Positions 1 through 12,229 of a stretch of DNA of 12,229 nt are shown here, in pieces; the first letter of the stretch is position 1, and each line of letters starts with the position of its first letter. A model generated the notes under the pieces. The model saw nothing but the letters and a program-made list of their open reading frames with translations, did not search any database and was not told the DNA's origin. A program made the position numbers and the translations under genes. The stretch lies in NCBI GenBank assembly GCA_937968035.1, contig CALBTS010000764.1:1-12229 (forward strand), in the 5' to 3' direction. Source of the stretch: an uncultured Methanomethylovorans sp. GTDB taxonomy: Archaea; Halobacteriota; Methanosarcinia; Methanosarcinales; Methanosarcinaceae.

Positions 1-45
1 CCACCGAGATCTACACTCTTTCCCTACACGACGCTCTTCCGATCT
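1..45 (+). other. Illumina TruSeq read-1 adapter (left end artefact)
   Basis: The first 45 bases match the 3' part of the universal Illumina P5/TruSeq read-1 adapter, ending in the diagnostic CTCTTCCGATCT. It is not biological sequence. Authentic sequence begins at about 46, so the contig is untrimmed and whatever lay upstream of the first gene is missing. Confidence 0.98.
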
Positions 46-48
46 AAC

Positions 49-456
49 ATGCGCAAAGAATGGACACTCCGGCTGATCGAGGTGATGTTTCATCATCTCC
101 TCGTCAGCCTATTCAAACAATATCCGGACCCGGTCAAAGTATATCGGTTCCTGGAATCCTGTTGCACTCTGTTTGATCAGGATCGAATTGAATTCGAACA
201 ACTGCTGGTCAAAGAGATGCAGGCGGATTATAATAATACCAGGCTCCTGAATGAGCTGCTGTATCTACAAAAGCAGGCCGGTGTATCTGAATCCCGACTG
301 ATGGAAATCAGCGGATTAAACCGATCCACTTTGAACTGGCGACTGAATCAATTCAAACATAACGGTATCGTTTATCCGATCCGGCACACGCAGGAAGAAC
401 TGGAAATCATGCGCAAGTTCATTCAGAAGTACACCACACTGGGGAGGATCTTATGA
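49..456 (+). CDS. Helix-turn-helix protein, possibly 5'-truncated
   Basis: This protein of 135 residues as read is not assigned to a named family. Residues about 78-108 (from GVSESRLMEI to FKHNGIVYP) read as a helix-turn-helix: a short helix, a turn at SGLN, then a recognition-like helix NRSTLNWRLNQF. The N-terminal 75 residues look all-helical. A role in DNA binding, either regulation or a terminase/replication accessory function, is inference. The frame is open through the adapter and the first ATG lies only 3 nt inside real sequence, with no ribosome-binding site visible, so the true start may be further upstream and lost. The stop overlaps the next start as ATGA (453-456), which suggests translational coupling and a shared operon. 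Confidence 0.8.
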   Translation: MRKEWTLRLIEVMFHHLLVSLFKQYPDPVKVYRFLESCCTLFDQDRIEFEQLLVKEMQADYNNTRLLNELLYLQKQAGVSESRLMEISGLNRSTLNWRLNQFKHNGIVYPIRHTQEELEIMRKFIQKYTTLGRIL

Positions 457-860
457 TTGATTTGCCAAACGCTCCCGCATCCATACAAAAAATGCGGGAC
501 ATTTATGAAACACTGGAACCCGATGTGTTCTACAAAAACCATTGGCAGTTGGCAGCCATGACCAACATCCCGGCATCGGAATGGAAACAGTTCTTGCTGC
601 TGCCTGCCGTGGCTGAATACATTTCTCAGGAATTGAACCTGCTGATTGAAACCCAGCGACGCACTATTCTGAAAGACCTGGATAAAAACCAGCGGTCTGT
701 CGGTACCGCACAGATTCTCAATGCCCTGGATAAAGTTATCGCCGGAGATGGTACGCGGTCAGGTCCGGTTTTTATTTATACTTATGTTCCGCTGAATGAA
801 CAGGAAGTCAACGCACCCAACGTTACAGAGCTGACAAAAGATCCATTCCGCGTAGAATAG
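453..860 (+). CDS. Small phage protein, putative HTH / terminase-small-like
   Basis: A 135-residue protein starting at ATG 453, 5 nt after the strong site GGGGAGG (441-447) and overlapping the upstream stop by 4 nt. Residues about 28-50 (KNHWQLAAMTNIPASEWKQF) have the spacing of a helix-turn-helix. Residues 51-80 look like a long amphipathic helix, and residues 81-97 fit a short helix. The C-terminal part (GPVFIYTYVPLNEQEV) is strand-like. The overall plan, an N-terminal HTH, a helical oligomerisation region and a beta tail, resembles small phage DNA-binding proteins such as terminase small subunits of Gram-positive phages. No terminase large subunit is present here to support that reading. 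Function is unproven; that it is a real gene is well supported by its start, spacing and codon use. Confidence 0.8.
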   Translation: MIDLPNAPASIQKMRDIYETLEPDVFYKNHWQLAAMTNIPASEWKQFLLLPAVAEYISQELNLLIETQRRTILKDLDKNQRSVGTAQILNALDKVIAGDGTRSGPVFIYTYVPLNEQEVNAPNVTELTKDPFRVE

Positions 861-868
861 GAGGCCCC

Positions 869-2263
869 ATGTTTGAAGACCTGCGTCCCTATCAAATAGA
901 GGACGCTTCTTTTCTGTCTGCCCGCAACAGCGCAGCGCTCTTCAATGAACAACGCACAGGTAAGACTCCCACTGTTCTTTATGCGCTGCATCTTAAACAT
1001 TCAAAACGGATAGTTATAGTCTGTCCAGCTTCTGCTCTGTTCCAATGGCGGGATGAATATGAACGCTGGACAGGACGACCAGCAATCGTTATCTCAGGCA
1101 CAGCTGCCCGACGTAAGTTCCTGTTTGATGCAGTCCTTACCAGTTGGAATGAAAATTATGCTGTCGGGCTGATCATCAATTATGACTTGCTTCGCCGAAG
1201 CGGCACCGACCTGGAAGAACTGATCCTAACTCAACCAGATGCCATCGTGCTTGATGAAGCACATCGCATACGCAATCCCAAAACAGCTACAGCCAAGGCG
1301 ATGTTCAAACTAATCAATATCCCGGTCCGTTATTGCTTGACTGGTACGCCTACTATGAACCATACCCATGAAATCTGGAGCATCCTGCACTTCCTGTATC
1401 CGCATACTTTCAGATCTTATTGGAACTTCATCAATGAATATTTTTATACGACTCGACAAACAAATCCCCGAGGCCAAACTTATATGGAAATAGGCAAGAT
1501 AAACTTTAAGGGGATTTTAATGTTGGACTCTATGCTGCCCCGCATCAGCATCGTGCGCAAACGCAAGGATGTTATGCAGTGGCTGCCGGATAAGGAATAC
1601 ATTCCCATCAAATTGGACCCCACACCCAAACAGAAGAAGTACCTTGACGAACTGGCCGAGGTATGGGAAACTGAGGACATCGTCACCATTGGCGAACTGG
1701 ATCGCCTGATCCGTTACCGCCAAATCTGTCTCGACCCTGGTATTCTGAATTTGGAAGGGGGCTCACCAAAAACAGAATGGTTACTTCAGTATCTCAAGGA
1801 CTATCCCGACCAGCCAACACTGGTGTTTTCCAAATTCACCCAGTATCTGAACCGACTTTCCCAACAGCTGACGGTTCCGCATGCGTTAATAATTGGCGCT
1901 ACTGCGGTGCAGCGCCGAAGGGAATACTGTCAGGCTTTTCAGAATGGAGAACTCAATCTGCTGCTGCTCAATATCGACGCCGGCAAGGAAGCCCTGACTT
2001 TGGACAGGGCCGAGGCTGTTGTTTTTATGGATCGGTATCCGCCGGTCGGAGACATTGACCAGGCTGAGGACCGCTTCGTTGCCACGACTGAAGACAAGGC
2101 AGACAAAGCGCACCTCATCTATCAGTTGTGCCTTGCAGGCACCTATGATGAGGACATCAACACAATGATTGCGGCCCGCTATCGTGAGACCGAAGTCATA
2201 AACAACTGGAGATCCTATATGGAAAGGAGAAAGAAACATGGCAATCGTACCCACAATCCGTAA
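869..2263 (+). CDS. SNF2-family DNA helicase/translocase
   Basis: A 464-residue superfamily 2 ATPase that should use ATP to translocate on DNA in phage replication or recombination. Motifs appear in order: motif I with RTGKT (29-33, in place of the usual GLGKT), motif Ia VCPASALFQW (51-60), motif II DEAH (129-132), motif III LTGTP (157-161), motif IV with TLVFSKFTQYL (317-327), motif V NIDAGKEALTLDRA (368-381) and motif VI QAEDR (398-402). It is compact for the family and has no accessory domains. In motif VI the second arginine of the usual QxxxRxxR pattern is missing (FVAT follows QAEDR). The start is ATG 869, 4 nt after AGGAGG (859-864). Its 3' end overlaps the next gene by 26 nt. Third-position base use is more AT-tolerant than in the GC-rich gene that follows, which could mean a separate origin. 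Confidence 0.93.
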   Translation: MFEDLRPYQIEDASFLSARNSAALFNEQRTGKTPTVLYALHLKHSKRIVIVCPASALFQWRDEYERWTGRPAIVISGTAARRKFLFDAVLTSWNENYAVGLIINYDLLRRSGTDLEELILTQPDAIVLDEAHRIRNPKTATAKAMFKLINIPVRYCLTGTPTMNHTHEIWSILHFLYPHTFRSYWNFINEYFYTTRQTNPRGQTYMEIGKINFKGILMLDSMLPRISIVRKRKDVMQWLPDKEYIPIKLDPTPKQKKYLDELAEVWETEDIVTIGELDRLIRYRQICLDPGILNLEGGSPKTEWLLQYLKDYPDQPTLVFSKFTQYLNRLSQQLTVPHALIIGATAVQRRREYCQAFQNGELNLLLLNIDAGKEALTLDRAEAVVFMDRYPPVGDIDQAEDRFVATTEDKADKAHLIYQLCLAGTYDEDINTMIAARYRETEVINNWRSYMERRKKHGNRTHNP

Positions 2264-3191
2264 GGCACAGCGCAAGCAGTGCAAAGCCAGCATCCTCCTG
2301 GAGGGGCTGTCCGGACGAGGCAAGTCGGGCCTGGCTCTGGCCTTGGCCTATGGCCTGGTCAAGGACTGGAGCAAGGTCTGCGCCGTGGATACCGAAAACA
2401 GATCCCTGGATTTGTATGTCGGTGCCAGGCTGCATACCGGCGACGTGGTCGGTGAGTTCCTGGTCGGTGACCTGACTGCGGACGACGGCTACAAGCCCAG
2501 CCACTACGAAGCGTACCGCGATGCGGCCATCAAGATGGGCATGGAAGCGCTGATCTGTGATTCCATTTCCCACATGTGGCAGTACAAGGGCTCTGTCCTG
2601 GACATGGTCACCCAGGCGCAGCGCAATGATCCCAAGCTGAACAAGTACACAGCCTGGGGTCTGCCGGAAATTGTCGCCGAAAAGAATCTCATCATGTCCC
2701 TGATCCGCCACCCGCAACTGCATGTCATCAACACCGTGCGAGTCAAGGAAAAAATGGAGTTCATCACCGGCGACGACGGCAAAACTGCGCTCAAGTCCCT
2801 GGGCGAGCAGGAAATCATGATGCCGGACCTGAAGTATGAGCCTGACCTGGTTCTCAGCATGGTCCAGCAAGGCACATCCTCAGGCCGGGCGCCCCGTGTC
2901 CTGGTCGTCAAGTCCCGGTACGCTCCGTTCATGGTCGATGAAGTCTATGACCTTACCGCCAACATGGTGGAACAGTTGCGCCTCTTCCTTGAAGAGGGAA
3001 CCAGTCCGGAAGACCTGCTGGAAATGCAGCGCAAGGACTACATCAAAGCCACGGTCGAGTACCTCGACAACAATCCCAACGTCCGTCCCATCTGGGACAT
3101 CCTAAAGGAACGTGCCGGTGTCAAAGAGATCAAGATATCGGAACTTCCTTTGGAAAAACTGAAGCTGCTGTTTGGGCAGCTTGTCAGCTAA
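2238..3191 (+). CDS. Sak4-like RecA-fold ATPase (AAA_24 type), single-strand annealing/recombination
   Basis: A 317-residue P-loop ATPase. Walker A is GLSGRGKS (23-30), and a Walker B-like strand ending in an acidic residue is ALICDS (104-109). DTENRSLDL (51-59) follows the second core strand, as in phage RecA-like ATPases of the Sak4/AAA_24 group. Sak4-like proteins assist homologous recombination and annealing, often together with a phage SSB; both an SSB-like gene and a YqaJ nuclease are encoded downstream. ATG 2238 follows GGAAAGGAGA (2221-2230) and lies inside the 3' end of the helicase gene. Codon use is strongly GC-ending (CTG, GTC, GGC). The C-terminal 80 residues are helical and not recognised. 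The exact subfamily (Sak4 versus another RecA-like phage ATPase) would need a profile search. Confidence 0.8.
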   Translation: MAIVPTIRKAQRKQCKASILLEGLSGRGKSGLALALAYGLVKDWSKVCAVDTENRSLDLYVGARLHTGDVVGEFLVGDLTADDGYKPSHYEAYRDAAIKMGMEALICDSISHMWQYKGSVLDMVTQAQRNDPKLNKYTAWGLPEIVAEKNLIMSLIRHPQLHVINTVRVKEKMEFITGDDGKTALKSLGEQEIMMPDLKYEPDLVLSMVQQGTSSGRAPRVLVVKSRYAPFMVDEVYDLTANMVEQLRLFLEEGTSPEDLLEMQRKDYIKATVEYLDNNPNVRPIWDILKERAGVKEIKISELPLEKLKLLFGQLVS

Positions 3192-3196
3192 GGAGG
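3191..3196 (+). promoter_or_regulatory. Ribosome-binding site AGGAGG fixing the start at 3202
   Basis: A perfect AGGAGG lies 5 nt before ATG 3202. It decides between this start and an in-frame ATG at 3172, which lies inside the preceding gene and has no such site. Confidence 0.85.
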
Positions 3197-3201
3197 CATA
3201 T

Positions 3202-3453
3202 ATGGTACCAGACATGCAAGCCCCCACTGTCAATCCATCCACCGTAGCCGCGGTCCCGAAAACAGCAGAGGAACTGGTTCAGGAACTCCATGCCCTTCGG
3301 GAACATCTGCAGCACAGAACAGAAGAAGTTATGCAGCTTCGTGCCAAGCACGATCAGCAGCATCAATACTATCAGCAGGTGCTCTTGACCATTGTGGAAA
3401 ACCTCAAGATCATGATGCGCACAATCGCAATACTTGCGGGAAAGGCTGAATGA
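3202..3453 (+). CDS. Small coiled-coil protein, unknown function
   Basis: An 83-residue protein. The first 20 residues are rich in Pro, Thr, Val and Ala and look unstructured. Residues about 22-60 (AEELVQELHALREHLQHRTE onward) show heptad spacing of Leu and Val with many Glu and Gln, predicting a coiled coil. The C-terminal segment (LLTIVENLKIMMRTIAILAG) is hydrophobic and amphipathic rather than a clear membrane span. The gene sits between the Sak4-like ATPase and the SSB-like gene, with its stop one base before the next start, so a role as a small adaptor of the recombination/replication proteins is plausible. No family is recognised. Confidence 0.8.
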   Translation: MVPDMQAPTVNPSTVAAVPKTAEELVQELHALREHLQHRTEEVMQLRAKHDQQHQYYQQVLLTIVENLKIMMRTIAILAGKAE

Positions 3454-3454
3454 T

Positions 3455-4024
3455 ATGGCCATCAACTTCAAAAAGCTGCCCTCCGATACACCCTATGCCG
3501 TACCAAAACCAGGTTTCTATCTGGCCAAGATCACCAAGGCGGAAATGAAAACAGGCAAGGACCCGGAGAAGCCGCCGTACTTGAACCTGACTTACAAGCT
3601 GACCGATGGCAGCGGCAAAAGCGCCGGCAATCTGTTCGACGGACAGTATGAGTCTGAAGCAGCAGTCATGCAGTTCAAACTGCAGCGCTTCCTGACCGCA
3701 CTCAAGCTGACGGGCCTGACTGTTTTCGAACTGAAAGATCTCATCAAGCTGGTGCAGGATCAGGAACTGGTTGTCGAAGTGGAGAACACCGTGGACAACC
3801 GGGACAAGGACCTGCCTCCGGAAAAGCAGCGTCTGCGGGCACAAGCCAAACTGTTCGGCTCGGACATCTACTGGCACAAGTCAGAGTTCCAGGCCCTGCT
3901 CAAAGAAAGCGGACAACAGGAAGCACCTGCTGCCGCACCGGACGACGGCGAAGTTCCCTTTGATTTCGATGCTGCCGATGGGGAAGTTCCGCCAGCGCCA
4001 GCAGAAACCCATAACGAATACTGA
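3455..4024 (+). CDS. Probable single-stranded DNA-binding protein (DUF669-like), acidic tail
   Basis: The 189-residue protein begins MAINFKKLPSDTPYAVPKPG and continues FYLAKITKAEMKTGKDPEKP with PYLNLTYKLTDGSGKSAG, the pattern 'PxPGxYxxxIxxAExKxxK...YLxLxxxLxDG' seen in the DUF669/phage SSB-like group, likely an OB-type beta barrel. The last 35 residues are acidic and disordered-looking and contain DDGEVPFDFDAADGEVPP, with DGEVP twice. Acidic tails are the partner-docking element of phage and bacterial SSBs. It would coat ssDNA for the primase-helicase and polymerase encoded immediately downstream, and may partner the Sak4-like ATPase. ATG 3455 is preferred to an upstream in-frame ATG at 3434 because it sits one base after the previous stop. 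It overlaps the next ATG by one base (4024). Confidence 0.68.
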   Translation: MAINFKKLPSDTPYAVPKPGFYLAKITKAEMKTGKDPEKPPYLNLTYKLTDGSGKSAGNLFDGQYESEAAVMQFKLQRFLTALKLTGLTVFELKDLIKLVQDQELVVEVENTVDNRDKDLPPEKQRLRAQAKLFGSDIYWHKSEFQALLKESGQQEAPAAAPDDGEVPFDFDAADGEVPPAPAETHNEY

Positions 4025-6798
4025 TGAGCTTCTTTCAGTATTACTTCGGAATAGAGATTGGGCGGAAGGAGACAGCCGTGTGCTGTCCCTTCCCCCACTC
4101 AACTCCGGGGGGACATGTGCAGTATTACGAGCAGCATCCGTCTGCTCATGTAAACCTGGAAGAAGGAGTATTCCATTGCAAGGTATGCCAGCAAGGGCAT
4201 TCCGAATTGTCGTTCATCAGTGCAATCCTGGGCTGCTCCTATGGTACTGCCATGAAGCTGGCCGTAATTTATCGCAACCCGGAAGACCGGATGCAGTGGG
4301 ACAATGTCCCGCTTACTACTGAAAGCATCACCTTGCTGCAGCAATTCAAAATCAGCATGGCTGTCATTGAAGAACTGCATGTTCGGGATGCTATTGACGG
4401 ACGAATTGCTTTTCCGGTATTGATGTATGATAAGCTGATAGATATCAGGATGTATAAACCAGGAGCCACACCCAAGGTCAAGTCCCGTGCCGGGGCAACT
4501 ATGGGCTTTGTCATTCCCTTTGACAACTGGCGCACGGAACGGGCCAAGACCACGATCATCTGCGCCGGTGAAAAGGATATGGCCGTAGCACGGTCATTCG
4601 GATTCAACGCCATCACCATTACCGGAGGAGAAAGCATCCTGCCTGCATGCACTGCCGAGTTCCGAGACCGCAAGGTGGTCATCTGTTATGACAACGATGG
4701 CCCGGGCAAGCGCGGCGCAATCCGGCTGGCCAATTATTTGAAACCAATCTGCGCATCCGTCAGGGTCTGCACCCAGTTCCATGAAGTGTGCAGCGAAGAC
4801 GGTGAAGACATCACTGATTTTTTTAACAAATATAATAAAACCCGGGAAGATCTGATCCGCTATCTGGATCAGGCAGTCGAACACGTCGTCGTGGATCTGG
4901 ACGGCGACGCGGTATATCCGGTTGTCGATCTGCATACGGCATCCAAACCACAGTACATCGGTAAGATGATGCGGTCCAACATTCAGATCGTTGCTACATC
5001 CGAAGCTACGTTCACGGTTCCTTCCGTACTGATCGGAGAAAAGTATCGGGACAGCGAACAGGGTGAGAACACCATGCACCGGAACGATATCCGGGAATGG
5101 ATTCTGAATGAAGACACAGCCCAGGATATTCTGCATATGATGGATAATAATTTTACTGAATCAGATCTTCAGAAGAACTACCGTTCCGTGCTCAGGATTC
5201 CTCAGAAAGAAACTTATATCAAATTCAAGTTGCCTTTTAAGGAAACAATTTATAAAGCCTACGTTTCCGATATGTTTGAAACGCAGGCCGGAGATGTAGT
5301 ACCCATGGAATATGTAGCCTACACCATAGGCTGCAAACTGGAATCCGGCAAGAAATATCTCGCAACCTATAAACTGGCGCCACACCCCTACAAGGGACAG
5401 CAGCTGACCATGCTGATTACCGGCATTGTCCAGGCCAACGATTCGGTCAGCAATTTTCAGGTTACACCGGAAGTCATTGAACATCTGCGTGTGTTTCAAC
5501 AGCTGCCGGGCACAGTCGCCCAGAAAGTTGAACATATTACAGAACGGTTCAAGGCTATCCTGGGGTATAACGGTAACAACACGCTCATCCAAACGATGGA
5601 CTTTGCCTACCATACAGTGCTGGAATTCAACTTCGGCAATCAGAAGAATGTCCGGGGCTACCTGGATACGCTGGTTGTCAGCGAATCCCGGGTGGGCAAA
5701 TCCTCAACTGCAGAAGCAATGCGCAGCACCTACGCCCTTGGGGCGCTGGTCTCGCTGGCAGGGAATGCGGCAACCATTCCCGGCCTGGTAGGAGGGAGTA
5801 ATAAAATTGGAGGAACCTATCAAACTCGCGCTGGAATTATCCCGCAAAATCACCGAGGACTTATCATCTTTGAAGAGCTTGGAAAGTCAAATGCAAATAT
5901 TATCAAAGAACTCACAGACATACGAAGCTCAAATGAAGTCCGTATTACCCGAGTGTCTGGAACCCTTAATCTCCCAGCAACTGTCCGAATGCTCGCCCTC
6001 ACAAATGTTCGCTCAGTTGACGGAAGCATTAAGTCGATTGCAAGTTATCCTAACGGAATCAGCATTCTTGCTGAACTCGTTGGCACTGCAGAAGATATTG
6101 CAAGATACGACCTCATCTGCGTCCTGGGAGACAGAGGAAATCAGCGCCTTGATCCCTTTTGGGAACCTGTCCCCGCCTTTGGAACTGATCTCTACCGTAC
6201 CCGCATACGGTGGATCTGGTCAAGGAGCGCTGCCGAGGTTGCAATCTCAGCTGACGTTGGACGATATCTTATCGAACAAGCCAACGCCCTGAACGAAACA
6301 TATGGCTGCCATATAAAAATATTCGGAACAGAGGCATGGAAGAAACTGGCTCGGCTGGCTATTGCAATAGCGGGCTATGTAGTTTCAACAGATGATACCT
6401 ATCATAATATTGTCGTATTGCGTGAACATGTGGACTACGCGGTCCAGTTCATGGTTGCCCTGTATGACAACCCGACCTTCAAACTGAAGGAATATGTCCA
6501 ATACGAGCGGATGTATGCTGAGATAGATGATGCCGGGGTCGAGCTGCTGCAGGAAATTTATCTCAAGCAGCCGGCCCTGCTCATCCATCTGGAACGTATG
6601 ACCTCTACCAGCAAGAACGCCCTGCAGGCAGCGACCGGCATGTCCAACGATGAGTATTCCCTGCAAATGTCCAAGCTGGTGGCGGGTATGTTCGTGCGTT
6701 TCAATAAGTATGACATCCTGCCGACCGAACGATTCCGTCTGGGCATGGCCCGCATTAACCGGAATACCCGGGTCCTGAGAGTGGGTGAGCATGAATGA
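4024..6798 (+). CDS. Primase-helicase: zinc finger + TOPRIM + MCM-like AAA+ motor
   Basis: A 924-residue replicative primase-helicase. The N-terminus has a probable zinc site (C20, C21, H25 and H51, C52, C55) in a CHC2-like setting (VFHCKVCQQGHSELSFI). TOPRIM spans about 176-250, with the acidic E183 in AGEKD and D223/D225 in YDNDGPG. The C-terminal motor is not DnaB- or T7 gp4-like. It has P-loop SESRVGKSS (553-561), Walker B GLIIFEE (612-618), a sensor-1 Asn in LALTN (657-661), RYDL (694-697) at the place of the MCM arginine finger, and a sensor-2-like helix WKKLARLAIAIAGY (772-785). This is the order found in MCM/superfamily 6 helicases, and a C-terminal winged helix is likely (about 830-915). 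It would unwind DNA and make primers for the adjacent polymerase. Residues about 595-756 are encoded with strikingly different codons, coinciding with an embedded +1 frame. The gene overlaps the polymerase by ATGA. Confidence 0.88.
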   Translation: MSFFQYYFGIEIGRKETAVCCPFPHSTPGGHVQYYEQHPSAHVNLEEGVFHCKVCQQGHSELSFISAILGCSYGTAMKLAVIYRNPEDRMQWDNVPLTTESITLLQQFKISMAVIEELHVRDAIDGRIAFPVLMYDKLIDIRMYKPGATPKVKSRAGATMGFVIPFDNWRTERAKTTIICAGEKDMAVARSFGFNAITITGGESILPACTAEFRDRKVVICYDNDGPGKRGAIRLANYLKPICASVRVCTQFHEVCSEDGEDITDFFNKYNKTREDLIRYLDQAVEHVVVDLDGDAVYPVVDLHTASKPQYIGKMMRSNIQIVATSEATFTVPSVLIGEKYRDSEQGENTMHRNDIREWILNEDTAQDILHMMDNNFTESDLQKNYRSVLRIPQKETYIKFKLPFKETIYKAYVSDMFETQAGDVVPMEYVAYTIGCKLESGKKYLATYKLAPHPYKGQQLTMLITGIVQANDSVSNFQVTPEVIEHLRVFQQLPGTVAQKVEHITERFKAILGYNGNNTLIQTMDFAYHTVLEFNFGNQKNVRGYLDTLVVSESRVGKSSTAEAMRSTYALGALVSLAGNAATIPGLVGGSNKIGGTYQTRAGIIPQNHRGLIIFEELGKSNANIIKELTDIRSSNEVRITRVSGTLNLPATVRMLALTNVRSVDGSIKSIASYPNGISILAELVGTAEDIARYDLICVLGDRGNQRLDPFWEPVPAFGTDLYRTRIRWIWSRSAAEVAISADVGRYLIEQANALNETYGCHIKIFGTEAWKKLARLAIAIAGYVVSTDDTYHNIVVLREHVDYAVQFMVALYDNPTFKLKEYVQYERMYAEIDDAGVELLQEIYLKQPALLIHLERMTSTSKNALQAATGMSNDEYSLQMSKLVAGMFVRFNKYDILPTERFRLGMARINRNTRVLRVGEHE
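5791..5798 (+). promoter_or_regulatory. Shine-Dalgarno-like site before embedded ORF at 5807
   Basis: GGAGGGAG lies 8 nt (counting from its end) before TTG 5807. It is made by glycine-glycine-serine codons of the primase-helicase gene, and is the strongest purine-rich site in that stretch. Confidence 0.5.
5807..6292 (+). CDS. Candidate overprinted gene inside primase-helicase (+1 frame)
   Basis: A 161-codon frame in the +1 phase inside the primase-helicase gene, starting at TTG 5807 and ending with TGA at 6290-6292. The predicted protein is 17% Leu and 15% Ser (my counts 28 and 24), with only 3 Arg, 2 Cys and 1 Trp. It looks helical over residues 1-100 (EPIKLALELSRKITEDLSSL and on), then more open (WETEEISALIPFGN), then a short amphipathic end (LTLDDILSN). 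Other chance +1 frames in this gene are rich in Arg, Trp and Ser. In the parent frame the same stretch uses CTG for 2 of 15 Leu and GGA for 12 of 13 Gly, and normal usage returns at both edges. No family or function is recognised and no membrane segment is clear. The alternative is a chance open frame allowed by locally imported codon use. Confidence 0.55.
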   Translation: MEEPIKLALELSRKITEDLSSLKSLESQMQILSKNSQTYEAQMKSVLPECLEPLISQQLSECSPSQMFAQLTEALSRLQVILTESAFLLNSLALQKILQDTTSSASWETEEISALIPFGNLSPPLELISTVPAYGGSGQGALPRLQSQLTLDDILSNKPTP

Positions 6799-8981
6799 AA
6801 TATCAGTGGCATAAGGAACACATCACCACCAATGCTCAGGCCAAGTGGATGGCATACCGGTATCTGGAAGAACATGGAACGGAAACCCTGCTGGACACAG
6901 AGACGACTGGCCTGCATATCATGCGGGACAAACCGTTCCTGGTTCAGTGGGGTTACTTCAATCATCTCAAAAAACAAGGCTATGCTTATTGCGTAGACAT
7001 TGAAAAGCAGCCTAAGCTGGCTGACCAGGTCATTAAGTTCTGGCTGAAGATGTCTGCCCAGGCAGAGTGCCTGGTTATCCACAATGCCAAATTTGATCTG
7101 CATATGCTGCGGAACGGCGGCTACGAATACCGGACAGAGAATGTTACAGATACCATGTTCTATATCCGGCATGCGTCAGATGCTATTCCGGAACGGTTCG
7201 GCGGTGTGCCGTTAGGACTGAAGCCCTATGCTGCCAGGTATATCGACCCTCGTGCCCGGCAACATGAAGCTGCGCTGAATGCAGAAAAGACAGCGATGGC
7301 TTCTAATTTTAATCGGGAACTTCTAAAGGTATACCTCAAGGGCCGCAAGATGAAGGAACTTAAACCTTTCTTTGACGACATTCTCAACGAGCCGGAAGAC
7401 CTGCCGGAAGCAGACCGCATCGCTTATTTCAAATGGCGGGAATGGCTGCCCCGCTGGTTGGACGGACGCTTCGACGTGCTGGTGGAAGCAGACAGCATCC
7501 CGTATAACCAGCTTCTCCGTGATCTGGTTGTCCGTTATGCGCTGGATGACATCGTCTGGATGGGCGAAGTGCTGCTGGCTACCCGTCCAATCATTGACGT
7601 GCGTAAAACACAAAATGCTATTGACCTGGAGAACCGCATGATCCTGCCCTTCCTGGATATGGAGACTGTAGGATTTGCAGCAGACAAGGAGTATTTGAAT
7701 TATGCAAAGACCACACTTAAAAAATATATCCGAAGCCGCCGGCTGGATCTTGTCACCCTTGCCGGAACGCCAGTCCGGTGTAACCAAAACGCAGAGATTC
7801 TCAGATTACTCCGGGATCATTTCGGTATCCCTTGCCAAAGCACAGAAGCTGAAGAGCTTTCTCGTCTGGCGGGTACTCTCAAACATTCAGGAGAAAATCC
7901 TGCTGGAGCAAATTTTATCGACACTCTACAAGAACTGCGCACATTGGAGAAATGGTACAGTACATATCTTCTTCGATTCATCCGAAGTCTTTCTGGTGAG
8001 GATCGACTGTATACCCAGATCAATCAAGTGGGTACGGTATCTGGACGAGTTACGTCAGACTTCCAGCAATTTCCCAAAGACGCGATTGTATCGGCTGACG
8101 GACGGGAGCTCTTCCATCCTCGTCGGCTGGTACGAGTAAGCGGAGGAGAGTATGACGCATTGGTCTATCTGGATTACAGTCAGATTGAACTTCGGTTGCA
8201 GGCACTTTACACACTGCTGGTAGGTGAGGGTGATCTCAACCTTTGCCGGGCGTACATGCCATTCAAGTGTTATGATTCGCATGCCGTCAAGTTCAATCCT
8301 GAAAATCCGGAACATGTGGCCCGTTGGCAAGAGCCGTGGTATCTTGAAGAAGACCCGGCTAAACGCTGGGAACCGGTTGATGTCCACGGTGCCACAGCTC
8401 AGATTGCTTTTGATACCACCCCGGAAGCTGCAGATTATAAACATCTGCGTTCCCTGGGCAAGCGCATCAACTTCGCCAAGAACTACGGGGCCCAGTTTGG
8501 ACGTATCAAGGCCATGTTTCCGGAATTCACCGACGAACAGATCCGCAAGATCGACCAGGCATATTACCGTGCGTTTCCAGGTGTGCGTGATTATCACCGT
8601 TACTGTGAGAAAATCGCCATGCTGGAGCCTTGCGCTGAAAATCTGTTCGGGATAAAATATTATAATGTAAGCGGACATAACCTGATCAACATGCTGATCC
8701 AGGGTTCCGGCGCGTTCCTGCTCAAGCTGAAGATCCGGGAGATGTGGGAATACGCCCGGGATCACAAAATCAAGTCTCGGATGCAGATGACCATCCACGA
8801 TGAGAACAGCTGGGAAAAACACAAGGACGATCCTATGGAACTGTTCTACAAATACAAGAAGATTATGGAAACCTGGCCGGACACACTGGTCCCCATCGTA
8901 GCAGAAATGGAAATGACCATCACTTGCTGGGCAGAGAAGAAAGCAATCAAGAATCCTGAAGGAGGCGAAGCACATGGCTAA
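6795..8981 (+). CDS. Family A DNA polymerase with 3'-5' exonuclease
   Basis: A 728-residue replicative polymerase. The proofreading domain has Exo I LLDTETTGL (D34, E36), Exo II VIHNAKFDLHML (D101) and Exo III YALDD (Y248, D252). The polymerase domain has the TxxGR-type motif QVGTVSGRVTSDFQQFP (411-427), motif A LDYSQIELR (D460), motif B RSLGKRINFAKNYG (552-565) and motif C HDE (668-670). All catalytic acids are present, so it should be active. There is no 5'-nuclease domain, as usual for phage enzymes. The gap between Exo II and Exo III (about 150 residues) is long and contains a charged helical insert (about 150-235). The start overlaps the primase-helicase stop as ATGA, giving coupled production of replisome parts. 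Residues about 303-448 (thumb and the TVSGR motif) are encoded with atypical codons that match an embedded +1 frame. Confidence 0.96.
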   Translation: MKYQWHKEHITTNAQAKWMAYRYLEEHGTETLLDTETTGLHIMRDKPFLVQWGYFNHLKKQGYAYCVDIEKQPKLADQVIKFWLKMSAQAECLVIHNAKFDLHMLRNGGYEYRTENVTDTMFYIRHASDAIPERFGGVPLGLKPYAARYIDPRARQHEAALNAEKTAMASNFNRELLKVYLKGRKMKELKPFFDDILNEPEDLPEADRIAYFKWREWLPRWLDGRFDVLVEADSIPYNQLLRDLVVRYALDDIVWMGEVLLATRPIIDVRKTQNAIDLENRMILPFLDMETVGFAADKEYLNYAKTTLKKYIRSRRLDLVTLAGTPVRCNQNAEILRLLRDHFGIPCQSTEAEELSRLAGTLKHSGENPAGANFIDTLQELRTLEKWYSTYLLRFIRSLSGEDRLYTQINQVGTVSGRVTSDFQQFPKDAIVSADGRELFHPRRLVRVSGGEYDALVYLDYSQIELRLQALYTLLVGEGDLNLCRAYMPFKCYDSHAVKFNPENPEHVARWQEPWYLEEDPAKRWEPVDVHGATAQIAFDTTPEAADYKHLRSLGKRINFAKNYGAQFGRIKAMFPEFTDEQIRKIDQAYYRAFPGVRDYHRYCEKIAMLEPCAENLFGIKYYNVSGHNLINMLIQGSGAFLLKLKIREMWEYARDHKIKSRMQMTIHDENSWEKHKDDPMELFYKYKKIMETWPDTLVPIVAEMEMTITCWAEKKAIKNPEGGEAHG
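7686..7691 (+). promoter_or_regulatory. Shine-Dalgarno-like AAGGAG before embedded ORF at 7702
   Basis: AAGGAG lies 10 nt before ATG 7702. The spacing is slightly long but workable. It is formed by Lys-Glu codons of the polymerase gene. Confidence 0.45.
7702..8139 (+). CDS. Candidate overprinted gene inside DNA polymerase (+1 frame)
   Basis: A 145-codon frame in the +1 phase within the polymerase gene, from ATG 7702 to TAA 8137-8139. The product would be basic. It has a mixed alpha/beta look after residue 33: FSDYSGIISVSLAKAQKLKS, then a hydrophobic amphipathic helix (FLVWRVLSNIQEKILLEQIL), then strand-like TVHIFFDSSEVFLVRIDC and a C-terminal SSSILVGWYE. In the polymerase frame the same stretch uses CTG for only 5 of 19 Leu, against about 22 of 32 in the 300 codons before it (hand counts), and none of those five is followed by A, which would make TGA in the embedded frame. 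No family is recognised. It is weaker than the frame inside the primase-helicase, because its composition is closer to a chance frame (more Arg and Trp). Confidence 0.42.
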   Translation: MQRPHLKNISEAAGWILSPLPERQSGVTKTQRFSDYSGIISVSLAKAQKLKSFLVWRVLSNIQEKILLEQILSTLYKNCAHWRNGTVHIFFDSSEVFLVRIDCIPRSIKWVRYLDELRQTSSNFPKTRLYRLTDGSSSILVGWYE

Positions 8982-9201
8982 AGAAAAGATTCGTAAAAAG
9001 GTTCTGCATGTGTACATGACTGACGAAGAGTATGCTTTTCTTCAGCTGTGCGCAACCAAGTTGGGCTGCAGCATCGCTCAGACTATGCTGCACCTGGCTG
9101 ATTTTGAAAACCGCATGCAGGAATATCAAACCAATCAAAACACCCAGGTACTGGGCGGAATCAATTTCGCTCAGATGCCCGACAAGGAGGAGCCGTATTG
9201 A
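8974..9201 (+). CDS. Small ribbon-helix-helix-like protein
   Basis: A 75-residue protein starting at ATG 8974, 8 nt after GGAGG (8961-8965) and overlapping the polymerase 3' end by 8 nt. The basic start (MAKEKIRKK), a short strand (VLHVYMT), then two helices (DEEYAFLQLCATKLGCSI and AQTMLHLADFENRMQEYQ) fit the ribbon-helix-helix plan of small phage DNA-binding proteins. The last 20 residues look unstructured. It could regulate the operon or assist the neighbouring resolvase; neither can be shown here. The stop overlaps the next start (TTGA). Confidence 0.75.
   Translation: MAKEKIRKKVLHVYMTDEEYAFLQLCATKLGCSIAQTMLHLADFENRMQEYQTNQNTQVLGGINFAQMPDKEEPY
9184..9190 (+). promoter_or_regulatory. Ribosome-binding site AAGGAGG supporting a TTG start
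   Basis: AAGGAGG ends 7 nt before TTG 9198. This makes the TTG, which overlaps the previous stop, the best start for the resolvase. It retains the first beta strand with the catalytic Asp. Confidence 0.8.
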
Positions 9202-9716
9202 AATACAATTACATTCTCGGCCTCGATCCTTCCGGTGCGTTTGAAGAAGGCAAAGGCACCTCAGGATGGGTGCTGCTTAATGCACTGGAAAATAAAGTTG
9301 TTCATAAGAATTCAATTCACGCCACAGAATATCCCTGTGACACCGCCTACTGGGGCAGCCACGTTCGGCTGCTGGAGTCGCTGAACCAAAAGTATGGTAT
9401 GCACGGCATGAGCATCGTCATGGAAGATTATCTGCTTTATGCCGACAAGGCGCAGTCTCAGGTCAATTCTCGCTTTGAAACCAGCCAGCTGATTGGCATC
9501 CTCAAGATGACCTGCGACAAGTATGAGCTGCCGTTGTTCATCCAAACCGCCAGCGAAGTCAAGCGGCGCTGGGATAACAAAGTGCTTCTGAAAAAAGGTA
9601 TCATCCGCCCGCATGGACGGGGGTTCGCCCTGGTCGATCCGTTCATGCCGATCAACCGTCATGAGCTGGATGCGCTTCGCCATGCGCTGCATCTCAGCTA
9701 CTTCTACAACAAGTGA
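9198..9716 (+). CDS. RuvC-like Holliday-junction resolvase (phage type)
   Basis: A 172-residue RNase H-fold nuclease. Strand 1 carries LGLDPSG (D10), the middle acid sits in IVMEDY (E76), and the C-terminal acidic motif is NRHELDALRHALHLSYF (E156, D158). This arrangement matches RuvC-family resolvases, including phage versions. It would cut four-way junctions made by replication or recombination, clearing branched DNA before packaging. The insert SSxxG-type loop (residues 80-100, AQSQVNSRFETSQLIG) resembles the region after the second acid in RuvC. It begins with TTG overlapping the preceding stop, and its own stop precedes the nuclease gene by 7 nt. Confidence 0.85.
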   Translation: MKYNYILGLDPSGAFEEGKGTSGWVLLNALENKVVHKNSIHATEYPCDTAYWGSHVRLLESLNQKYGMHGMSIVMEDYLLYADKAQSQVNSRFETSQLIGILKMTCDKYELPLFIQTASEVKRRWDNKVLLKKGIIRPHGRGFALVDPFMPINRHELDALRHALHLSYFYNK

Positions 9717-9723
9717 GGTTATC

Positions 9724-10467
9724 ATGCAAGTATTAGAACTCGAAGATCTATTCAAGAAACAGATTCTCAAAACCTGCGACGCAGATCAGGAAGACACCAT
9801 GACCCTGACTCCCGAGCAGTTTGCCATGATGCGGCGCAATGGCTTAGGCGCTTCCGACATGTCGGCAGTGCTGGGCACAATGGATAAGTTCCGCACCCGT
9901 GACGACGTGCTGCAAAACAAACTGCAGACCACCTGGACCCAGGAAGAACAGGACATCGGTGAAAAAGTTAATGTCCGCAAAGGTGTTGACCTGGAACCGC
10001 TGATCCTGCGCAAGGCCAGTGAACAACTGAAGTTGGAAATTATTAAGCCGACCACCATGTATCGGCATAAAGATTTCCCCTGGCTGACCGTCAACTTCGA
10101 CGGCATTGCCCAGGTGAACGGCGTTTGTATTCCCATCGAAGCCAAGTTCACTTCGACCTACGCAGACAAGTATTGGAACTATGCTCCGGATAAAGGGCCG
10201 TGGATCAGGCCGCCCCATCAGGATATCCTGGACTACATCAAGTCCTCGGCCACCTGTTATGGCGTTCCGCCCTACTACCTGGTGCAAATCCAGGTGCAGA
10301 TGCTGGCACTGAACGCACCCTTCGGACATCTCGTTTCTCTCAGGGACAAAGACTGGACAGCGTATACTTTCAAAATCGACAAGGACCAGCGGATTCAGGA
10401 TCAGATTCTGATGGAAGGCCACAAGCTGTGGCAGCAGATCGAGAAGCTGCGGGGCCTGATCAGGTGA
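9724..10467 (+). CDS. YqaJ-like/lambda-exonuclease-type recombination nuclease
   Basis: A 247-residue PD-(D/E)xK nuclease. Seen motifs are the N-terminal RRNGLGASDMSAVLG (37-51), an acidic GVDLEP (87-92), the catalytic Asp in WLTVNFDGI (D126), ExK as PIEAKF (E139, K141), and YYLVQIQVQMLAL, the Q-rich helix typical of YqaJ and lambda exonuclease. Family members resect one strand of linear dsDNA to leave ssDNA for an annealing protein; the Sak4-like ATPase and SSB-like protein upstream are the natural partners. ATG 9724 follows a weak TGAGG site (9714-9718). A longer in-frame reading from 9613 lies inside the resolvase gene and is not likely. The stop overlaps the next GTG (GTGA). Confidence 0.88.
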   Translation: MQVLELEDLFKKQILKTCDADQEDTMTLTPEQFAMMRRNGLGASDMSAVLGTMDKFRTRDDVLQNKLQTTWTQEEQDIGEKVNVRKGVDLEPLILRKASEQLKLEIIKPTTMYRHKDFPWLTVNFDGIAQVNGVCIPIEAKFTSTYADKYWNYAPDKGPWIRPPHQDILDYIKSSATCYGVPPYYLVQIQVQMLALNAPFGHLVSLRDKDWTAYTFKIDKDQRIQDQILMEGHKLWQQIEKLRGLIR

Positions 10468-10700
10468 AAGCCGTACTGCAGAAATTGTGCGGCAAGATCG
10501 TCAAGATCTATCTGCGCAACGAACAGAACTTCTCAGCCAGGATCATGAATGTCGCTGAAGATGTGGTCTATGTCCAGTCCCAATGGGCCGATATCTACAT
10601 CCGGATTGATGAAATCATCGCTGTGTCTTTGTCCATAGATACGCCGCTTGCAAACGCTCCTACGAAGAACATGTACCATCCCAAGAACAAGCACTGCTAA
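10464..10700 (+). CDS. Sm/LSm-fold-like small protein, unknown function
   Basis: A 78-residue protein starting at GTG 10464 in a GTGA overlap with the nuclease gene. Residues 9-56 read CGKIVKIYLRNEQNFSARIM, then NVAEDVVYVQSQWADIYIRI and DEIIAVSL. That is a run of five short strands with a Gly at strand 1, 'I.L.N...F.A.I..V' and a final 'IYIRIDEIIAV' that resembles the Sm1/Sm2 pattern of LSm and Hfq-type proteins. The C-terminal 20 residues look disordered and end in a basic HPKNKHC. An RNA-binding or ring-forming role would be inference; another small beta barrel is equally possible. The last gene of the + strand block, its TAA overlaps the stop of the convergent - strand gene. Confidence 0.7.
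   Translation: MKAVLQKLCGKIVKIYLRNEQNFSARIMNVAEDVVYVQSQWADIYIRIDEIIAVSLSIDTPLANAPTKNMYHPKNKHC
10697..10700. other. Convergent stop-codon overlap
   Basis: The four bases CTAA hold the + strand TAA (10698-10700) and the - strand TAG (complement of 10697-10699). No hairpin followed by a T-run is visible on either strand nearby, so there is no room for a terminator between the two transcription units. Confidence 0.9.
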
Positions 10701-12178
10701 CGCAGGTTGCTCCAACTGGATTTCAGCTTGGTGGCCAGATTCGCTGCGGTGACCGGGATCAACCGGTTGTTGAAACGGATCTGGCCGCTGCCTGTATAGA
10801 GCCTGCGCACCAGCGCCGGTTTAACCGAAGTCATGATCCGGTTAGCGGTCGGCATACGGAATTGCGTATTCCTGACCGAAGCCAGTATCCGGGCTCCTGC
10901 ATAGAGATCCATACGCGGCGGATACATTGACCGGGCATAAGCCTTGGAGACGTAAAGTTTCCTGGGCTTTTTTTGGTAAGTACGTTTCGGTTTCTTCGGG
11001 GCGTAGTACCGCTGTGCATAGAGCTTACGCGGTTTGGAACTGTATACCTGACGCAGATATACTTCTGCCTGGTACTGTAGTTTTCCTTCGACAGCAAATG
11101 CACCCTTACCTAAATGCTCCTGATATTTCTCCCGGCCATGCGTCATGTACACCATATCGCTTCCGGGATAGGCAAAGTAATAATTGCGCTGGACCGCACC
11201 GAACATGGACGGCAGCGACATCGGCAGATACTTGCCGGTACGCTCATAGATCTGCTGGATGGAGCCGTAATCCCACGGTTCATCTTCCGGTGCCCACCAG
11301 CCTTTCTGAATCATCGGCCCGAGCAGCGGCAGATTGGTGGCCAGGGTCTTTGCCCAGTTGATTCCATGTGCGTCTTTCTCCATGATCCCTGCCATCTTGA
11401 GCAGTTCTTCGCCAGGTATGCGGACATAAGGCGTAACCCGGGTATAGAATTCGTTCGGGTCAACCAGAGCACGGATAGCATCCAGCGCAGAAGGGTTCAG
11501 TTTCAATGTGAGGTTGTCGTTAAAGACCACGTTGCCCGCCAGGATGTTGTACTGCAGGCTGCGGTTCTCATTGATTTCCCGATGCGAGTATTCGTCCCGG
11601 TTCCAGATCGGGCGTGCCATGTCCGCCATGATTCCAGCAACCCAGGGCTGACGATCCAGAACATCAATCCAGTAGGCGGTATTGTTGACAAAGAACGAAG
11701 CAAATGGAATGACATACTCTGCGTACATCATCCATTTTGGTTTCATGCTGTAGTCAAAATGTGTGCGCAGGATTTTGTCCATTGCTTCATCGACTGTCGA
11801 ACCGTTCATCAGCTCCCAGGTATAAGCGGACAGACGGACAGTCTGCTCGATGAAACTGTTCGCATCCATGATATATTTGAACGGCATGAACTTGGCTGCT
11901 TTGCCCTGTAGGAGCTCGTGCATTAGATCAAACTCCTTAGGCAGCTTGAGCAGTTCCCGGTAATGCTTGTTTTTTGCCAGCATGGTCTGCACCTGCGCTG
12001 TAGTCAGGCCGGCTGACGGGCCATGCTCCAGGAAATTGTGAATCAACTGGAATACTTCCTTGGAGATGGGCCGGTTTGGTTTTGTGATATACATCCGGTC
12101 CAGTGTGCGCAGAGAAAAGAAATCAGATTTCTCTTTGACAACGTCGTCAGTATAGTTCAGCATTTCCTTATAGATTTC
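10697..12178 (-). CDS. Large phage protein, 3' part (polyvalent/internal virion-like), truncated by contig end
   Basis: About 494 codons on the - strand. The frame is open into the right-hand adapter, and the first ATG (12163) has 5 in-frame codons before it in real sequence, so the gene is probably 5'-truncated. Numbering from that ATG, residues 133-170 (RTHFDYSMKPKWMMYAEYVI then PFASFFVNNTAYWID) resemble the conserved core of large phage 'polyvalent' proteins (LPD38-like: FDY..., a PF-aromatic stretch and an N-rich turn). This is family recall, not a search. The C-terminus (about 375-455) is basic and Tyr-rich, with KPRKLY occurring twice (377-382 and 399-404). Such proteins are often carried in the capsid and ejected with DNA. 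It runs opposite to the replication block, which fits a separate late structural unit. Several hydrophobic stretches look amphipathic rather than membrane spanning. Confidence 0.75.
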   Translation of the reverse strand, partial: EIYKEMLNYTDDVVKEKSDFFSLRTLDRMYITKPNRPISKEVFQLIHNFLEHGPSAGLTTAQVQTMLAKNKHYRELLKLPKEFDLMHELLQGKAAKFMPFKYIMDANSFIEQTVRLSAYTWELMNGSTVDEAMDKILRTHFDYSMKPKWMMYAEYVIPFASFFVNNTAYWIDVLDRQPWVAGIMADMARPIWNRDEYSHREINENRSLQYNILAGNVVFNDNLTLKLNPSALDAIRALVDPNEFYTRVTPYVRIPGEELLKMAGIMEKDAHGINWAKTLATNLPLLGPMIQKGWWAPEDEPWDYGSIQQIYERTGKYLPMSLPSMFGAVQRNYYFAYPGSDMVYMTHGREKYQEHLGKGAFAVEGKLQYQAEVYLRQVYSSKPRKLYAQRYYAPKKPKRTYQKKPRKLYVSKAYARSMYPPRMDLYAGARILASVRNTQFRMPTANRIMTSVKPALVRRLYTGSGQIRFNNRLIPVTAANLATKLKSSWSNLR

Positions 12179-12229
12179 AGATCGGAAGAGCGTCGTGTAG
12201 GGAAAGAGTGTAGATTTCGGTGGTAGCCG
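12179..12229 (-). other. Illumina TruSeq read-1 adapter (right end artefact)
   Basis: Starting with AGATCGGAAGAGCGTCG, this is the reverse complement of the left-end adapter, extended a few bases further into P5 and with two apparent mismatches (T for C at 12214, A for C near 12224). Together with the left end it forms an artificial terminal inverted repeat. Confidence 0.97.

Follow-up and report, generated by a model that had tools for sequence, protein, structure and literature searches.

A candidate overprinted gene in the +1 frame of a phage primase-helicase marked by a maintained shift in codon use

In phage T7, gene 4 for the primase/helicase carries two annotated out-of-frame open reading frames (ORFs), the short 4.1 near the start of gene 4A and 4.2 over the 3' end of gene 4; in the T7 record, they start at 11635 and 12988, i.e. 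70 and 1423 nucleotides (nt) after 11565, and hence are in the +1 frame by arithmetic. Here, we analysed a phage contig of metagenomic origin carrying a replication module (positions 1 to 12,229 of CALBTS010000764.1 in assembly GCA_937968035.1; this whole stretch of 12,229 nt is referred to as the window), in which an ORF of 161 codons is nested in the gene for a phage primase-helicase. Compared by frame and position, this embedded ORF is similar to T7 4.1 and 4.2 in being an out-of-frame ORF in a phage primase/helicase gene; by contrast, it is 161 codons long and fully nested in the AAA+ motor part of a parent of other make-up. Based on its sequence features, we propose that it is very probably a lineage-restricted overprinted protein-coding gene.

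Overprinting is already known. The relevant sections of PMC8227390 report that de novo viral frames are mostly +1 (75% in one study), and more so for internal overlaps, and that young overprinted genes display odd codon use, a restricted distribution and fast evolution under weak purifying or positive selection. Similarly, the relevant section of PMC8903798 lists +1 as the commonest shift among same-strand virus overlaps once overlaps of 1 and 4 nt are set aside; the median +1 overlap there is 14 nt while the overlap in the window, which has the same shift, is 486 nt. The sets described in those sections of PMC8227390 and in the corresponding part of PMC6195259 comprise mainly small eukaryotic viruses, whereas the window stems from a double-stranded DNA phage and the footprint is in the codon use of the ancestral frame. 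An open-literature search revealed no earlier description of nested genes for this primase-helicase family, which is not proof of absence. What is new here is a long, fully nested example with a clear footprint.

Within the embedded ORF, CTG encodes 2 of 15 Leu compared to 42 of 56 elsewhere in the parent gene, and 1 of 14 if the codon that forms the stop of the ORF is left out. Similarly, GGA encodes 12 of 13 Gly compared to 13 of 48 outside, and third-base G makes up 9% in the segment with shifted codon use and 28% outside. Apart from CTG, the Leu codons of the segment are CTC or CTT; TTA and TTG are absent. These counts agree with an initial annotation made from the sequence letters, which had placed a +1 ORF of this length where the codon choice of the parent changes between CTG-rich flanks. 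The initial annotation had also explained the loss of CTG by avoidance of TGA, which arises in the +1 frame if CTG is followed by A. This accounts for only part of the loss, as no more than 6 of 14 internal Leu codons precede a codon starting with A. The codon shift consists of a general avoidance of third-base G in the parent, i.e. of G at the second base of the +1 codon.

A change-point search that was blind to the ORF gave limits that match the ORF in the window (Table 1), with a log Bayes factor (logBF) of 21.2, whereas 60 shuffled genes, on a coarser search grid, gave at most 8.3. The closest relative for which DNA was found, IMGVR_UViG_3300022664_000292 (L003/L062/L088; 73% protein identity), has a +1 ORF at 4787-5221 with 144 open codons. 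In this relative, CTG encodes 2 of 14 Leu in the segment and 51 of 68 outside, and third-base GC is 0.41 in the segment versus 0.65 gene-wide. Here, the blind search returned 4765-5256 (medians; 95% limits 4729-4810 for the start and 5175-5274 for the end), which roughly matches the ORF, and the best logBF was 30.0 compared to at most 12.9 in 60 shuffles. The +1 products of the two phages are 50% identical.

Table 1. Coordinates of the embedded ORF and of related features in the window
Feature	Position	Strand	Remarks
Parent gene, phage primase-helicase, 924 aa	4024..6798	+	CHC2-type/DnaG-type zinc ribbon, Toprim, MCM-like AAA+ motor
Embedded ORF, proposed overprinted gene, 161 codons	5807..6292	+	+1 frame of 4024-6798, wholly nested; TTG start, TGA stop
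Stop of the embedded ORF	6290..6292	+	Parent CTG-A makes TGA; same TGA in L062 at 5270-5272
TAG shutting the +1 frame directly upstream	5789..5791	+	In-frame; common to both phages
Shine-Dalgarno-like AGGAGGGAG	5790..5798	+	Identical in L062
Codon-shift segment	5797..6279	+	From the blind change-point search; 95% limits 5788-5815 (start) and 6207-6288 (end)
Leader and start region with conserved silent sites	5758..5820	+	Of 13 fourfold sites, 1 is changed relative to L062; flanks 63%
Upstream +1 frame, 121 codons	5426..5791	+	Taken as a chance frame
Weaker candidate, embedded +1 ORF in the DNA polymerase gene 6795-8981	7702..8139	+	ATG start; AAGGAG at 7686-7691
Genes of the replication module			SNF2-type helicase, AAA ATPase, DUF669 protein, primase-helicase, family A DNA polymerase, YqaJ-type recombinase

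None of 2000 synonymous shuffles of the whole parent gene left the segment open in either phage, and those of the window had an average of 6.8 stops there; a longest +1 run of at least the observed 166 occurred in 0.55% of the whole-gene shuffles for the window (P 0.0055, and 0.005 for the relative). When shuffling was confined to the segment, the frame was still open in 8% (window) and 10% (relative). Thus, openness and codon shift are not independent evidence, and most of the openness of the segment is carried by the codon shift itself.

As the initial annotation had pointed out, a Shine-Dalgarno (SD)-like GGAGGGAG, at 5791-5798, lies 8 nt ahead of TTG 5807. In the relative, TTG is found at the matching position after GTAGGAGGGAG, and the distance from AGGAGG to TTG is 11 nt in both phages. 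We suggest that ribosomes would initiate internally at TTG 5807 behind AGGAGGGAG on the replication mRNA, giving a product of 161 residues in the window phage and of 144 in the relative. Alternatively, programmed ribosomal frameshifting into the +1 frame could generate a fusion to the primase domain instead of a separate protein, and it would fit with this variant of overprinting that the SD-like sequence lies inside a gene, adjoins A-rich codons and is about where the codon shift starts. However, no slippery heptamer was found at the site in a check made by eye, with no program run, and the position of TTG 11 nt past AGGAGG in both phages speaks against frameshifting. Such a fusion is possible but less economical than internal initiation, and we consider it highly improbable. 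A scan of the + strand from 5400 to 6500 for the sigma-70 consensus revealed no promoter-like site, and the folding of a possible hairpin before the SD sequence was in neither phage clearly better than in shuffles.

The upstream +1 frame, which the initial annotation had regarded as a chance frame, lies outside the codon shift and has no matching +1 ORF of at least 60 codons in L062; it was rejected as a gene. An antisense gene was also rejected, the antisense frames containing 5-14 stops each in the window and 2-20 in L062.

A segment with foreign codon use might also have been acquired by recombination from a relative with other codon use in the common ancestor of the two phages, with the open frame as a by-product. 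The sharp limits of the shift would fit with this explanation, and phage replication genes are known to recombine. We compared the two phages using a substitution pattern derived from eight other shared genes and the flanks (2111 codon pairs encoding the same residue; a ninth gene with 34% identity was left out). The fourfold sites differ between the two phages at 0.54 in the segment and 0.63 in the flanks, i.e. they are near saturation. Predicted from the segment of the other phage, third-base G was expected 25.6 times (standard deviation (sd) 3.9) and observed 9 times, and 23.3 times (sd 3.8) versus 8 times in the reverse direction; third-base A or T was expected 40.5 times and observed 70 times, and 49.8 versus 69 times in the reverse direction. 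None of 5000 simulations each way matched the observed values. With silent sites near saturation, an inherited foreign segment should thus have faded, and we conclude that the codon shift is actively maintained in both phages and not merely inherited. Moreover, none of the relatives fetched uses the codons of the segment throughout its gene, and therefore no recombination donor was found; the codon use of the best homologue gave a log-likelihood of -196, not clearly better than the -199 of uniform use, while that of the L003 segment gave -170. Finally, with Leu encoded by CTC or CTT in place of TTA or TTG, the shift is unlike that expected from an AT-rich donor, and its limits coincide with the SD sequence, the start and the stop. 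Recombination is strongly disfavoured by these observations, and we regard it as improbable.

In the +1 frame, the second and third bases of a parent codon take the first and second codon positions. With both phages pooled, the ratio of third-base A to C plus T in the segment is 4:73 if the second base is T, compared to 30:15 if it is G (p 2.7e-13), whereas the effect of the second-base class in the flanks has a p of 0.09. In the +1 frame, A after second-base T would result in TAN (Tyr or stop), while A after second-base G results in GAN (Asp or Glu). The log odds ratios for this effect in the two phages (-3.6 and -2.8) rank below those of all other genes in the set of 70, which average 0.6 (sd 0.9). 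Thus, the third-base choice follows the second base of the parent as a +1 coding frame predicts; a plain shift in composition would move all second-base classes alike.

Next, we consider the family of the parent protein. Stops were counted in the window and 69 loci; L001, L002 and L062-L072 (copies of included contigs), L050, L057, L061, L079 and L087 (partial or weak matches), and L089 and L090 (later additions) were left out, and L005-L007, L035 and L049, L039 and L056, and L082 and L083 are apparent near-duplicates by their counts. The codon shift was scored in those 66 of these 70 genes that are 850 codons or longer. In the closest relative with DNA, frame, start and shift are all retained. 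By contrast, the segment contains 5-27 +1 stops in each of the other 68 loci, which are distant relatives (at most 63% identity by tblastn), and the shift is clear only in the window and the closest relative (z 7.9 and 8.5, followed by L016 with 3.1, L056 with 2.8 and L037 with 2.7). The SD motif scan flagged 4 of the 70 loci, of which L036 was an indexing artefact and L053 was taken as chance, leaving the window and L003. At the protein level, 95 of 120 proteins (the window and 119 homologues, i.e. the top 120 of 1698) have a Met in the segment directly before I, M, T, N or K, which makes a TGA in the +1 frame unavoidable, while the window and its 12 nearest relatives are without such a forced stop; among these 120, DNA was matched only for P0001, which is the window, and for P0003 (L062), and was not found in the collections scanned for P0002 (88% identity) and P0004-P0012. 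The +1 gene is accordingly narrower in distribution than its parent, and the +1 stops and lack of a shift in distant relatives fit a young, lineage-restricted gene. In total, we suggest that the gene arose in the lineage of the window phage and its closest relative, where selection for a second protein would have pushed the synonymous codons of the parent off third-base G.

In the primase-helicase genes of two other loci, unexpectedly long +1 runs start just upstream of the segment and enter it: one of 134 codons from codon 515 in L073 (codon-shift z 1.8) and one of 91 codons from codon 512 in L027 (codon-shift z 5.7).

The codon choice could also be kept for a reason at the RNA or DNA level, e.g. 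translation speed during folding of the AAA+ domain, mRNA structure or protein binding, the +1 frame being incidental. The +1 product does not exceed a control frame in residue similarity, and the segment is less stably folded than its flanks (in kcal/mol per 120 nt, -26.9 versus -33.6 for the window and -25.8 versus -34.6 for L062), both of which are in line with this possibility; however, folding is not weaker than in synonymous shuffles of the segment itself (z -1.7 and -0.6), and Rfam gave no match. Moreover, no comparable shift is seen in the other 64 full-length genes of this family. Because the CTG-using homologue L030 has CTG in 9 of 11 Leu in the segment, the shift is not required by the AAA+ fold as such. 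Lastly, a cause at the RNA or DNA level predicts neither an SD sequence with a start codon nor the split of third bases by second base. We therefore consider this explanation unlikely.

Comparing across genes, the primase-helicase segment is the sole clear shift in the eight shared genes of both phages, the seven others being without a comparable one. Among 29 long shifted-frame runs scored in 246 long ORFs, the two primase-helicase runs rank at the top (z 9.6 and 8.1), followed by 5.7 and 4.7.

Several observations weigh against an overprinted gene. The start codon is TTG, and the evidence comes from two genomes only. In L062, the frame ends at an earlier TAG (5219), 17 codons before the shared TGA at 5270-5272; the segment limit is nearer the shared TGA, suggesting that the TAG may be a recent truncation, and stop-codon recoding was rejected because TAG terminates 5 of 12 ORFs examined on that contig. 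Synonymous divergence is not reduced over the segment (0.50 versus 0.48 of codons outside); since synonymous change is not slower, a classical rate-based test of synonymous constraint would see mainly the start region. The similarity of the +1 residues has a p of 0.017 against synonymous redraws from the segment's own codon use compared to 0.04 for the +2 control, and on identical residues the +2 control does better (0.009 versus 0.15 for +1). As the +1 product does not beat the +2 control, we do not claim purifying selection at the residue level. The lack of a rate reduction would fit the fast evolution of young overprinted genes described in the relevant sections of PMC8227390, a fit that is not proof. 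In the change-point search with 12 null shuffles per gene, the RuvC-like gene of the window and the polymerase of both phages were at the edge of the null, those of the window slightly above its maximum (8.2 versus 7.9 and 7.8 versus 7.2, respectively). Finally, no homologue of the product was found among predicted proteins (none of 763 candidates reached E 10), and the structure prediction is weak.

The predicted product of the embedded ORF is Leu/Ser/Glu-rich and probably helical. AlphaFold2 with the two sequences predicted two long helices (3-56 and 64-115; mean predicted local distance difference test (pLDDT) 61), and with the relative alone helices at 8-55, 69-91 and 95-108 (pLDDT 42), which weakly suggests a fold. 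A heptad-periodicity test gave no excess over shuffles (P 0.17 and 0.53). The product contains 12% Glu plus Asp, 2% Arg and 15% Ser. In the relevant sections, PMC8227390 describes +1 products as enriched in hydrophobic and depleted in acidic residues, and PMC6195259 describes overprinted products as enriched in Arg; the acidic and Arg contents of the window product run counter to these trends while its Ser is high as published. A six-frame search for the product in IMG/VR returned only the contig of the known relative. PADLOC gave no result and the PHROG scan no family for the window product, the best match by sequence in PDB was keratin (E 0.27), and Foldseek against viral models gave 403 matches at E 10 and none at 0.001. 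A Pfam GCFC match (20.1 bits compared to a cut-off of 28.1, and no match in L062) was rejected as a chance match of a helical protein. The family, structure and defence libraries searched gave no functional lead. By analogy to overprinted viral genes in general, a rather doubtful guess is that the product might be a small accessory or host-interaction factor, in a broad sense, made together with the replisome.

A second, weaker candidate for an overprinted ORF lies in the DNA polymerase gene. Its counterpart in L088 is at 4580-4966 on the minus strand, and the +1 frame is open in both phages up to a common stop. CTG encodes 5 of 19 Leu in the candidate region versus 35 of 54 outside in the window, and 3 of 16 versus 26 of 50 in L088; 4 and 9 of 2000 shuffles leave the region open, third-base G is observed 15 times versus 25.9 in simulations (P 0.001) and 14 versus 22.9 times (P 0.004), and the second-base class effect has an odds ratio of 0.14 (p 2e-4), compared to 0.43 in the flank (p 0.01). 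In the set of 65 polymerase genes, all 63 others have at least three stops in the region. Several points weigh against this candidate: its codon-shift z values (3.5 and 2.9) are not unique (L037 6.3, L059 3.5), the start positions differ between the two phages, the best change-point of L088 is elsewhere in the gene, the longest-run test is non-significant (P 0.125 and 0.175), and a search for homologues of its product returned none. As it was found by looking, it deserves less weight. With a less than even chance, this phage group may repeatedly overprint its replisome, nested +1 genes in the primase-helicase motor and the polymerase, each with its own SD sequence and start, then encoding a de novo protein pair made in step with the replication enzymes.

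In L059 and L037, from two more distant phages, the polymerase genes contain a long +1 run that overlaps a shift in codon use, at about codons 292-418 and 327-463 of the window polymerase, respectively. The shift in L037 may result from recombination because it goes toward TTA.

Gene callers usually reject nested same-strand ORFs, and such genes in large phages are for this reason probably under-counted. Our analysis suggests that an overprinted gene can be revealed without a deep alignment, from a change-point in codon use, third bases tested by second-base class and a single diverged relative. It also points to the most conserved enzyme cores as places where phage proteins may arise de novo, hidden by the protein sequence of the parent.

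The parent protein matches Pfam MCM (7.1e-06), and only MCM and Mg_chelatase reach curated cut-offs, Zn_ribbon_DnaG and Toprim_4 being under theirs; its PHROG matches are DNA primase and primase/helicase. The 1698 homologues were found among 7998 proteins scored. The part of the parent covered by the embedded ORF had been read as encoding Walker B, sensor 1 and the arginine finger, a putative assignment that agrees with the MCM motifs. No DNA match was found in named phages; their protein matches, in 50 records, are all under 60% identity, with 34.9% as the highest among the 40 matches listed.

At the contig start, positions 1-45 of the window look like Illumina adapter sequence, and the region upstream of the first ORF is therefore not genomic. 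In L088, a +2 frame of 217 codons is open in the primase-helicase gene (8315-8968, minus strand; codon-shift z 4.2); the longest +2 run of the window has 98 codons and is at another location. Finally, L088 encodes an ORF of 335 residues at 13954-14961 on the minus strand with a YADD motif, which by eye is reverse transcriptase-like.

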